From Actinacidiphila rubida (GTDB lineage: Bacteria; Actinomycetota; Actinomycetes; Streptomycetales; Streptomycetaceae), in the NCBI RefSeq assembly GCF_900110255.1, contig NZ_FODD01000004.1, positions 248,001 through 312,000 on the forward strand: 64,000 bases of DNA. The letters are read 5' to 3'. How positions within the stretch are numbered: the stretch's first letter is position 1; each line of letters opens with the position of its first letter. The translations under genes were made by a program, and so were the position numbers. Shown here piece by piece: positions 37,308 to 40,494 of this stretch. The notes under the pieces are model-generated. The model worked only from the letters and a program-made list of their open reading frames with translations. It searched no databases and was not told where the DNA came from.

Positions 37308-38495
37308 ATGCAGTGCGAGAGCCGCTTGACGCTTGACGCCTCCGCCGCGGACCACGTCGTCGACGTGGCCAACGTCGTACGGGAGCCCGCGCTCGGCGGC
37401 GACAGGCCGGCCGACCTGGCCCGGTTCGAGGGAGTGCTCGACGCGCTGGCGGACTTCTCCCGCGACCCGGCCGTGCAGGTCTACGCGATCACCGACCGCT
37501 CCCTGCTCACCGACGCCCGGCTGACCGCGCGGGAACGCGAGCGCCTGGACCGGTGGTACCGGCACGGGCTGATGGAGGTCCTCCCGCGGGCCGACGACCG
37601 CATCCTGGAGCTGGCGGACGCCCTCGGCGTGCGGGTGGTGAGCGGCGACAACTTCCTGGACTTCCACCGCGCCCACCCGTGGATCCCCGGCGACCGCGAC
37701 CGCTTCCTGCGGCCGGTGCTCGGCGACGACGGCGTGATCGTGGTGCGCCCGCGGATCATGCCGGTGCCGCCCGAATGGCAGGTCTCCCGCAAGGAGGAGG
37801 AGGGGCTGCTGCTCGAGGCGGGCGTGCTGCGGCGCTGGGCGCCGAACGGGCACCTGACGGTGCTCGGCCGGCACTGGCGCTGCCCCGAGCCCGGCTGCCC
37901 CCTCTTCGGCGCCGGGGACCGGCCGAGCACCGCCCTGCCGCGCCGCCGCAGGGATCGGGTGCTGTGCCCCACCCACGGCGGGCCGCTGGCCGACGCCGGG
38001 CCACGGCCGCGCCAGGTGCAGGTGAAGGTGCTGATGGACGGCACGGTCAGGGGCCGCTTCATGGTGACGGCCGGCGAACCGCTGGCCGTGGGGCGGGCGC
38101 CGGCCGGTGGCGGGGCCGTGCTCGGGACCTGGGTCGACGACCACGCCGTGGAGTCGGTGAGCCGCACCCATGTGGTGCTGGCGTTCGACGGCCGGGTGCT
38201 GACGGTCCTCGACGAGCGCAGTGCCAACGGCACCCGGATCCGCCGCAGCCGCCCGGCCGGCGACGAGCTGGTGCCGCTGCACCACGGCAGCCGCTGGACC
38301 CTGCGCCGCGGCGACTCGGTGGTGCTGCACGACCGTCTCGAACTGCTGCCCAGCGGGCGGCAGTTCGTGTTCGAGGAGGACGGGACGGACGGTACGGTCG
38401 ATCCGCTGCGGCAGGAGTCGGCGGCCGGTCCCACGATGATGGGCGTGCCCTTGCCGGCACTCGACGAGGGGCGGCGGGGCGATGGCCGGGAGTGA
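37308..38495 (+). CDS. NYN/PIN-like domain, zinc knuckle and FHA domain protein
   Basis: A 395-residue three-part protein. Residues 1-130 look like a NYN/PIN-type nuclease domain: acidic residues at D19 (VVDVANVVRE), D63 (AITDRS), D96-D97, D114 and D118 (VVSGDNFLDFH), similar to the Zc3h12a-like group. Residues about 180-235 carry CPEPGC and LCPTHG, a possible zinc knuckle. A C-terminal FHA domain for phosphothreonine binding includes AVGRAP, ESVSRTHVVLAF and ERSANGTRI. It lies upstream of, and overlaps by 14 bases, a Ser/Thr kinase gene. The combination suggests an RNase steered by kinase signalling; this is inference. ATG at 37308 begins the domain; the upstream extension is not supported. 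Confidence 0.8.
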   Translation: MQCESRLTLDASAADHVVDVANVVREPALGGDRPADLARFEGVLDALADFSRDPAVQVYAITDRSLLTDARLTARERERLDRWYRHGLMEVLPRADDRILELADALGVRVVSGDNFLDFHRAHPWIPGDRDRFLRPVLGDDGVIVVRPRIMPVPPEWQVSRKEEEGLLLEAGVLRRWAPNGHLTVLGRHWRCPEPGCPLFGAGDRPSTALPRRRRDRVLCPTHGGPLADAGPRPRQVQVKVLMDGTVRGRFMVTAGEPLAVGRAPAGGGAVLGTWVDDHAVESVSRTHVVLAFDGRVLTVLDERSANGTRIRRSRPAGDELVPLHHGSRWTLRRGDSVVLHDRLELLPSGRQFVFEEDGTDGTVDPLRQESAAGPTMMGVPLPALDEGRRGDGRE

Positions 38496-39783
38496 GGGGC
38501 CGCGGGACGGGGAACCGGCTCGGCGCGGCCCTGGACGCCGGATCGGGCGGGTCCGGGATCAGGCGGGAGACGGGCACGGCGTGGCGGACGTGATCGACGT
38601 CGGTACGGTCCTCAGCGGCCGCTACCGGCTGGAGGAGCCGCTCGGCGGCGGCGGGTTCGGGCGGGTCTTCACGGCCCTGGACCAGAGCCTGGGCCGCCGG
38701 GTCGCGGTCAAGGTGCTGACCCTGCGCGACGAGTGGGCCGACGACGAGCGCAGCGAGCGGCAGGGCAGGTTCCGGCGCGAGGCCATGGCGGCCGCGGCCC
38801 TCAGCCATCCGAACGTCGCCACCGTCCACGACGCCGGCGACCATCAGGGGCGGCCGTTCCTCGTGATGGAGCTGCTGCGGGGCAGGGACTTCGGCCGGGT
38901 GCTGCTGGAGCGGGGCGGCCTGCCGGTCGCCGATGTCGTGGCCTACGGCGCGCAGATCTGCGCGGGCCTGCAGCACGCCCACGAACGGGGCCTGGTGCAC
39001 CGGGACATCAAGCCGGAGAACCTGATGCTGCTGCCCGACGGGGTGGTGAAGATCCTGGACTTCGGCCTGGTCACGCAGCGGGACTCGAAGCTGACCAGGT
39101 ACACCGACCCGCACGCCGTCATGGGCTCCCCCGCCTACTTCTCGCCCGAGCAGGCGCAGGGCCGGGACGTGACGGGCCGGTCCGACCTGTACTCCGTGGG
39201 CTGCGTCCTGTACGCGCTGCTGGCCGAGGGGCCGCCGTTCTCCTCCAGCAACTACGTCGGATTCGCGTACCTGCACGTCCACGAGACGCCGGAGCCGCTG
39301 GAGCGGCGGCGTCCTGACGTGCCGCGGGAGCTGGCCCTCCTGGTGCACGAGATGCTGGCCAAGCACCCGGCGGACCGGCCGGCCGGGGCGGGTGAGGCGG
39401 CGGCGCGGCTGCGGGCCCTGGCGCGCCCGGTCCCCCCGCCGCCGCGCAGCCCCACGGCGCTGGACCAGGGCGCCCGTCATCTGGTGTGGACACTCCTGGA
39501 GGAGGGCGAAGGGCTGCTGCGGAGCGGCAGGTTCGCGGACGCCGACCGCCGCTACTGGCAGGCCATGCAGCAGATCGCGCGCCTGGGAGCGGACCGCGAA
39601 CCCGCCTCCTTCGCCGCGCAGTTCGGCCGGGCCCGGGCGCTGGAGGGGCTGCACGGCCTGGCGGCGGTGGTCCGCCGGCTGGAGAACCTGAGCGACGAGG
39701 CGGCCTCGGCGCTGGGTGCCGGCCATCCGCTGGCGCGCTGCCTGGCCGACTACTCCGCGGCCAGGCCGGAGTCGAGTCTGTGA
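38482..39783 (+). CDS. soluble serine/threonine protein kinase
   Basis: A 433-residue Hanks-type kinase. The glycine loop is LGGGGFGRVF (residues 54-63), the catalytic Lys is K77 in VAVKVL, HRDIKPEN carries D175, DFG is at D193, and GSPAYFSPEQ marks the P+1 loop. The last 110 residues are helical and TPR-like. No membrane segment is present, unlike PknA/PknB-type kinases, so it acts in the cytosol. The ATG at 38482 overlaps the end of the FHA gene; a GTG at 38581 would remove 33 residues before the kinase domain. Confidence 0.92.
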   Translation: MAGSEGPRDGEPARRGPGRRIGRVRDQAGDGHGVADVIDVGTVLSGRYRLEEPLGGGGFGRVFTALDQSLGRRVAVKVLTLRDEWADDERSERQGRFRREAMAAAALSHPNVATVHDAGDHQGRPFLVMELLRGRDFGRVLLERGGLPVADVVAYGAQICAGLQHAHERGLVHRDIKPENLMLLPDGVVKILDFGLVTQRDSKLTRYTDPHAVMGSPAYFSPEQAQGRDVTGRSDLYSVGCVLYALLAEGPPFSSSNYVGFAYLHVHETPEPLERRRPDVPRELALLVHEMLAKHPADRPAGAGEAAARLRALARPVPPPPRSPTALDQGARHLVWTLLEEGEGLLRSGRFADADRRYWQAMQQIARLGADREPASFAAQFGRARALEGLHGLAAVVRRLENLSDEAASALGAGHPLARCLADYSAARPESSL

Positions 39784-39816
39784 GGGGCGGCGCCGGGGAG
39801 ACCCCCACGACGGACC

Positions 39817-40494
39817 TTAGAGCGCGATCCGGACGGTGAGGTCGGCCGCCAGCCGGACGGTGTCGCCGGGCCGCACGGCGGCGGGCTCCAGCGCCTTGAG
39901 CCGGTAGCCGTGCACGAAGGTGCCGTTGGTGGAGTCCTCGTCGGTGATCCACGCCGAACCGTCGGCCTCGACCCCGAAGGTGGCGTGCAGCCGCGACAGG
40001 TTGTCGTGCGCCGCCAGGAACTTCACGGCCGGGCACAGCCGGGGGTCGCGGCCGAGCCGCACGCGCCCGCCCGGCTCCACGGTGACGGTCTCGTCCCCCG
40101 GGAAGCACAGGCGCAGCGCCTGGCTCGGCGCGTCCCTGCGGGTCTGCGCGGCGCGTTGCAGGGCCCCGGGGATGAGCCGGATGACCCGGGCGTGCTCGGC
40201 CTCCCGGCCGGCGGGCCCGCCGACCTGCGGCAGCGCGTCGGTGGCGTCCATGTCGTCGCCCATGTCGTCCGCGTGCTCACGGCCCTGGGCGTCGACTGCG
40301 TCGTCGGCGTGACCGGCGTACCCGGCGTCCGTGCCGCCCCGGGCCTCCCCCGCGTACTCGGCACCCCCGGTCGCGTGGCGCACCGGCCGCATGAGCGCGA
40401 ACGGCACCAGGCAGCCCTGGCACACCAGTTGACCCGCGTGCGCACCCGTCGTGCCGCACTCGGGGCAGGGTCCTGCGCCCTCGTCCTCGCGCAT
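39817..40494 (-). CDS. zinc-ribbon and FHA domain protein
   Basis: A 225-residue protein. The N-terminus has CPECGTTG and CQGC, a treble-clef or zinc-ribbon type set. A middle stretch of about 60 residues is rich in Asp, Gly and Ala. The C-terminal FHA domain shows VRLGRDP, NLSRLHATFGV and DSTNGTFVHG, with the phosphothreonine-binding Arg and Ser-x2-His preserved. It faces the kinase gene, which ends 33 bases away, so kinase and FHA proteins probably act together. ATG at 40494 is preferred; GTG at 40524 lacks a ribosome binding site. Confidence 0.85.
   Translation of the reverse strand: MREDEGAGPCPECGTTGAHAGQLVCQGCLVPFALMRPVRHATGGAEYAGEARGGTDAGYAGHADDAVDAQGREHADDMGDDMDATDALPQVGGPAGREAEHARVIRLIPGALQRAAQTRRDAPSQALRLCFPGDETVTVEPGGRVRLGRDPRLCPAVKFLAAHDNLSRLHATFGVEADGSAWITDEDSTNGTFVHGYRLKALEPAAVRPGDTVRLAADLTVRIAL

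Follow-up and report, generated by a model that had tools for sequence, protein, structure and literature searches.

Organization of the locus

The window analysed here is a 64,000-nucleotide stretch of the 9.0 Mb genome of Actinacidiphila rubida, a soil actinobacterium whose congeners bear the names Actinacidiphila or Streptomyces. Three real genes lie at the place singled out by the initial annotation: P0001 (37308–38495, + strand), which encodes a 395-residue protein made up of a predicted NYN domain, a zinc ribbon, an FHA domain and a threonine-bearing tail; P0002 (38581–39783, + strand), which encodes a Ser/Thr protein kinase, predicted to be soluble, with a five-helix TPR-like tail; and P0003 (39817–40494, − strand), which encodes a zinc ribbon and FHA protein and is convergent to P0002. 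The module is bordered on the left by genes for a DinG-like helicase (PF13307) and LexA, and on the right by an IucA/IucC siderophore synthetase gene.

P0001 and P0002 had been described as overlapping by 14 bases, an arrangement that requires P0002 to start at the alternative ATG 38482 and that we could not support. Indeed, in the nearest relatives (L002 and L043, whose P0001 is 85% identical), the kinase frame opens at a GTG matching GTG 38581 of the window, the sequence upstream is unlike that of the window, and nothing equivalent to the 33 codons ahead of GTG 38581 is present in the closest relatives. We therefore prefer GTG 38581 as the P0002 start, with a likely gap of 85 bases after P0001. 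In some congeners, the NYN and kinase genes overlap by 4 bases, and coupling of the two genes within the lineage is plausible despite the gap in the window. The 33 bases reported at the end of P0003 were found as described and separate the stop codons of P0002 and P0003; because P0003 is convergent, it does not share a transcript with them.

P0001 carries a predicted NYN nuclease domain

The N-terminal part of P0001 (residues about 13–150; 37344–37757, + strand) is predicted to be a nuclease domain of the Zc3h12a/PRORP-type NYN class. This assignment relies on fold comparison and on Hsp70-fused homologues, as direct profile calls are absent: the FHA domain was the sole call in a Pfam scan of P0001, the window NYN domain alone did not reach PF11977 (11.7 bits versus a cut-off of 23), a profile search of the PDB with the alignment of full-length P0001 did not call it, and an NYN-only profile search gave just weak PRORP matches (E 0.49). 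By contrast, the structure prediction that had been proposed as a check of the fold bears it out: the AlphaFold2 model of P0001 is confident (mean pLDDT 86.7, mostly 95–98 in the NYN part), and Foldseek matches it to PRORP1/2 and ZC3H12B/C in the PDB (probability 1.00, E 7e-5 to 1e-3). P0001 shares with Zc3h12a/Regnase and PRORP the fold, a D-x-x-N start and Asp residues placed where the core strands end, but it lacks their CCCH finger or PPR part and has a zinc ribbon with an FHA domain in its place.

Streptomycetaceae loci L035–L039 (e.g. L036:6409–8481) encode Hsp70-like proteins whose C-terminal part is an NYN domain of the Zc3h12a type. These fusions carry an Hsp70-like ATPase and, unlike P0001, no FHA domain; their NYN domain is homologous to that of P0001 (hhalign 97.4%, E 1.5e-11), with a common DNF...PW motif region and with D19, D63, D96 and D114 each opposite an Asp. 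The fused domains themselves clear the cut-off of PF11977 (RNase_Zc3h12a) with 27–28 bits, and they also align with ZC3H12B.

Five residues of the P0001 domain, D19 (37362), N22, D63 (37494), D96 (37593) and D114 (37647; all + strand), are identical in 28 of 28 aligned homologues. The initial annotation had listed acidic residues arranged as in NYN/PIN RNases, and four of these (D19, D63, D96 and D114) are thus present and invariant, whereas D97 and D118 recur in only 8 and 17 of the 28 proteins, respectively.

Zinc ribbon, FHA domain and tail of P0001

The NYN domain is followed by a zinc ribbon (37863–38003, + strand), in which W190, C192, C197 and C220 are invariant in the 28 homologues and residue 223 is either H or C, and by an FHA domain (38013–38357, + strand), in which G262-R263, S285 and H288 are invariant. 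The latter scores 23.1 bits against a Pfam cut-off of 20.7, displays the GR...SxxH...NG motif and matches the folds of FhaA, GarA, OdhI and APLF in the PDB (Foldseek). The FHA domains attributed to P0001 and to P0003 both score above the Pfam cut-off, in agreement with the initial annotation. Some relatives have another residue in place of the NG-motif Asn (e.g. 'STYGT'), and binding of phosphothreonine may therefore not be universal.

After about residue 358, the P0001 tail is disordered in the AlphaFold2 model and poorly conserved apart from T376 (38433–38435, + strand), a near-invariant Thr and candidate phosphorylation site. A Thr is aligned at this position in 26 of the 28 homologues, and the two remaining tails have one nearby. 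In a control in which the tails were shuffled 60 times, kinship being ignored, the best Thr column reached at most 13, versus 24 in the real tails. P0001 had been proposed to be either recruited or switched by phosphorylation; the conserved tail Thr supports the second option more than the first.

The kinase and the second FHA protein

As judged from its sequence, P0002 is a catalytically complete Hanks-type Ser/Thr kinase: its kinase domain is recognized by Pfam (E 3e-47), and the VAVK Lys, the C-helix Glu, HRD and DFG are all present and invariant in the kinase alignment. Inspection by eye revealed no obvious membrane segment, and the C-terminal region contains five hairpin-type helices (residues about 294–393 of the 400-residue form) compatible with TPR, all of which accords with the cytosolic kinase with a TPR-like tail described initially. 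The PknG TPR and rubredoxin domains gave no Pfam or NCBIfam match in P0002.

The P0003 proteins of congeners have a conserved Thr in an N-terminal 'TRVI' tail motif; in the P0003 of the window (39817–40494), this Thr is replaced by Ala (EHARVI). Adjacency of P0003 to the NYN gene is confined to this genus and to the pair formed by S. scabiei and S. coacervatus. In the latter two species (S. coacervatus and S. scabiei; L054:8866–11645 and L055:8455–11333), a P0003-like FHA gene overlaps a second kinase gene, whose product is probably membrane-bound, and this overlapping pair sits beside the NYN–kinase pair.

The NYN gene is paired with diverse kinases outside the genus

We examined 27 loci outside the genus (L054–L081 minus L069); the matches of a phylum-wide profile search, mostly FHA-only or NYN-only, were excluded from the spread of the full architecture. 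In 17 of the 27 loci, the NYN gene lies immediately next to a kinase gene, versus a chance expectation of about 0.7% (27 kinases in the 9.0 Mb genome, about 7,900 genes being assumed), so that the adjacency exceeds chance. The NYN–Zn–FHA gene has no adjoining kinase in L065, L073, L076, L078 and L079.

The adjoining kinases fall into at least four architectural classes (TPR-like, Sel1, WD40 and transmembrane), which track the clades of the NYN tree. The partner is soluble with a TPR-like tail in S. scabiei and S. coacervatus, carries Sel1 repeats in the Kitasatospora type and WD40 in Frankia (L059), and has a C-terminal membrane/extracellular part in Nocardiopsis and others, where its gene lies upstream of the NYN gene, as well as in S. 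griseocarneus and others, where it is divergent. Tight coupling is seen whichever gene comes first: in L054/L055 the NYN gene leads and overlaps the kinase gene by 4 bases, and in L063, L058 and L064 a transmembrane kinase gene leads, separated from the NYN gene by −4, 2 and 16 bases, respectively. Since the partner kinases differ among loci, the NYN–Zn–FHA protein is the constant part and the kinase the variable one. Functional coupling of the two is strongly supported, because the gene pairing recurs independently, with different kinases in unrelated contexts. Altogether, the module is a real and recurrent pairing of a kinase with an NYN protein whose ribonuclease function is predicted from sequence and model.

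Two other arrangements were seen. In Embleya-type genomes (L041:5578–6297 and L076:7246–7965), a gene for a peptidase M50B-like membrane protein follows the NYN–Zn–FHA gene, replacing the kinase. In Actinomadura (L077:2201–9309 and L080), the NYN–Zn–FHA gene heads an operon that continues with genes for a 518-residue protein and a Cys-rich 427-residue protein (neither with a Pfam match) and for a vWA protein, with a divergent kinase.

Gain and loss within the genus

An intact NYN gene is present in 18 of 35 genomes of the genus, and in each of these 18 the kinase adjoins it. Six others have the kinase without an intact NYN gene, which is absent (L096, L097, L098 and L100), a remnant (L101) or half deleted (L021). 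The NYN and kinase genes are both broken in L014, dinG lies directly beside the siderophore gene in eight genomes, and other genes lie between them in two. A candidate broken gene in L006 was rejected, the internal stop being the gene's own. The module thus comes and goes between dinG and the siderophore cluster: NYN is absent or broken in 17 of the 35 congeners, with at least eight state changes on the DinG tree. The module is absent from most Streptomycetaceae sampled. A PHROGs search gave no match to it, and neither did plasmid and phage records, in which no mobile carrier was found.

Conservation of the trio inside the genus was rejected as linkage evidence on its own, the whole neighbourhood being syntenic. 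Nor is the trio a fixed unit, as had been supposed, given that the kinase and a P0003-type FHA protein occur without NYN and that P0003 has a limited spread beside NYN. One might argue from the six congeners that keep the kinase and P0003 that these two form the working pair and that the NYN protein is dispensable or a catalytically dead scaffold. This is highly improbable in our view: five active-site residues are invariant across 28 divergent proteins, and, beyond this genus and the two species S. scabiei and S. coacervatus, the NYN–kinase pair exists without P0003. The loss asymmetry, which comprises few independent losses (at least three), is what would be expected if NYN were harmful without its kinase.

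The same distribution bears on a housekeeping function, in which RNA processing (PRORP-like, or mRNA turnover) would be phospho-regulated and tuned by nutrient or envelope kinases. The match to the PRORP fold, the transmembrane kinases of some clades, which suggest envelope signals, and the analogy with PknG–OdhI metabolic control are consistent with such a function, but the repeated absence or breakage of NYN among congeners and its absence from most Streptomycetaceae sampled make it quite improbable.

Relation to known systems

The statement that no described system has this make-up holds in part. Kaur et al. (2020; PMC7159879) list PIN joined to a Zn-binding domain, and PIN joined to FHA, as effectors of vWA–MoxR–VMAP ternary systems, which they predict to be conflict systems; the open-licence literature yielded no description of a free-standing NYN–Zn–FHA protein paired with a kinase. 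P0001 resembles these effectors in having a Zn-binding domain C-terminal to a PIN-type RNase domain, and in joining PIN and FHA within one polypeptide; unlike them, it is free-standing, has a catalytically complete protein kinase for a partner and has no MoxR/VMAP partners, the MoxR AAA, VMAP and vWA gene set not being among the window neighbours examined. At L031:2973–6698, L032:4487–7813 and L033:4134–7451, we observed proteins of about 1,100–1,240 residues ending in a diverged NYN–zinc ribbon–FHA-like tail (no Pfam match in the two that were scanned), homologous in its NYN–Zn part to P0001. Their genes adjoin VMAP-C/trypsin and MoxR-type AAA genes and look like the vWA–MoxR system type of Kaur et al.

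This kinship raises the possibility that the kinase senses stress or infection and, by phosphorylating the tail, turns the NYN ribonuclease on, as an abortive-infection-like effector. The related C-termini in operons of the vWA–MoxR–VMAP type (PMC7159879), the patchy presence and repeated loss of the module, and the many sensor types of the partner kinases all point that way. However, a harmless uninduced effector could stand alone, whereas intact NYN always comes with the kinase within the genus; moreover, the module lies between dinG/lexA and siderophore genes, outside any defence island, and no PADLOC model matches P0001 or P0003 (the models that match the kinase, PD-T4-6 among them, are all generic kinase models). 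We consider this activating scheme rather unlikely.

The mechanistic precedents are the ETTS–FHA switch of GarA and the TPR kinase PknG (PMC12321487, PMC8546545). As in the actinobacterial PknG–OdhI/GarA systems, a soluble kinase with a helical/TPR tail is found with an FHA protein bearing a Thr in a flexible tail. The differences are that a predicted NYN nuclease domain is joined to the FHA output, that the Thr is C-terminal in P0001 and that P0002 has no match to the TPR or rubredoxin domains of PknG.

A proposed phosphorylation-gated ribonuclease

The reading that we favour, to which we give somewhat less than an even chance, is a ribonuclease gated by phosphorylation, more likely as a restraint: the kinase would act on the tail Thr, which the FHA domain would then bind. 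It is supported by the NYN fold and active site, the recurrent kinase pairing with tight coupling whichever gene leads, the conserved tail Thr of P0001 and that of P0003 in congeners, the loss asymmetry, including the breakage of both genes in L014, and the GarA/PknG precedent. The replaced FHA Asn of some relatives and the NYN–Zn–FHA genes with no adjoining kinase speak against it. P0002 would phosphorylate T376 of P0001, and the phosphorylated residue would be bound by an FHA domain, be it that of this P0001 molecule, of a second one or of P0003, which may serve as a second phospho-reader for P0002. This binding would close or open the NYN active site, much as pThr–FHA closure switches GarA and OdhI. 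The helical tail of P0002 may sense or dock, as that of PknG does. The sign of the switch, which we infer from the few (at least three) independent losses, is more likely that of a restraint: P0001 would be phosphorylated and closed in normal growth, and inactivation of the kinase would release it as an RNA-cutting effector.

A broader proposal is that of a family of kinase-gated RNases, in which a single effector cassette, made up of the NYN domain, the zinc ribbon, the FHA domain and the Thr of the tail, would be combined with many Ser/Thr sensor kinases into a phosphorylation-based toxin–antitoxin system: the kinase would silence the RNase, which would be released once kinase activity is lost. 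This generalization is, for now, an unlikely one.

Few outputs are known for the dozens of Ser/Thr kinases that actinobacteria possess. A module that recurrently leads from a kinase to RNA cleavage would supply a candidate substrate for several orphan kinases, and would show at a nuclease the phospho-switching familiar from GarA and other metabolic regulators. Single-residue predictions follow for the FHA Arg and for the Thr conserved in the tail, and the pairing of one probable NYN enzyme with varied kinases in many unrelated actinobacteria points to a little-noticed phosphorylation control of RNA cutting.
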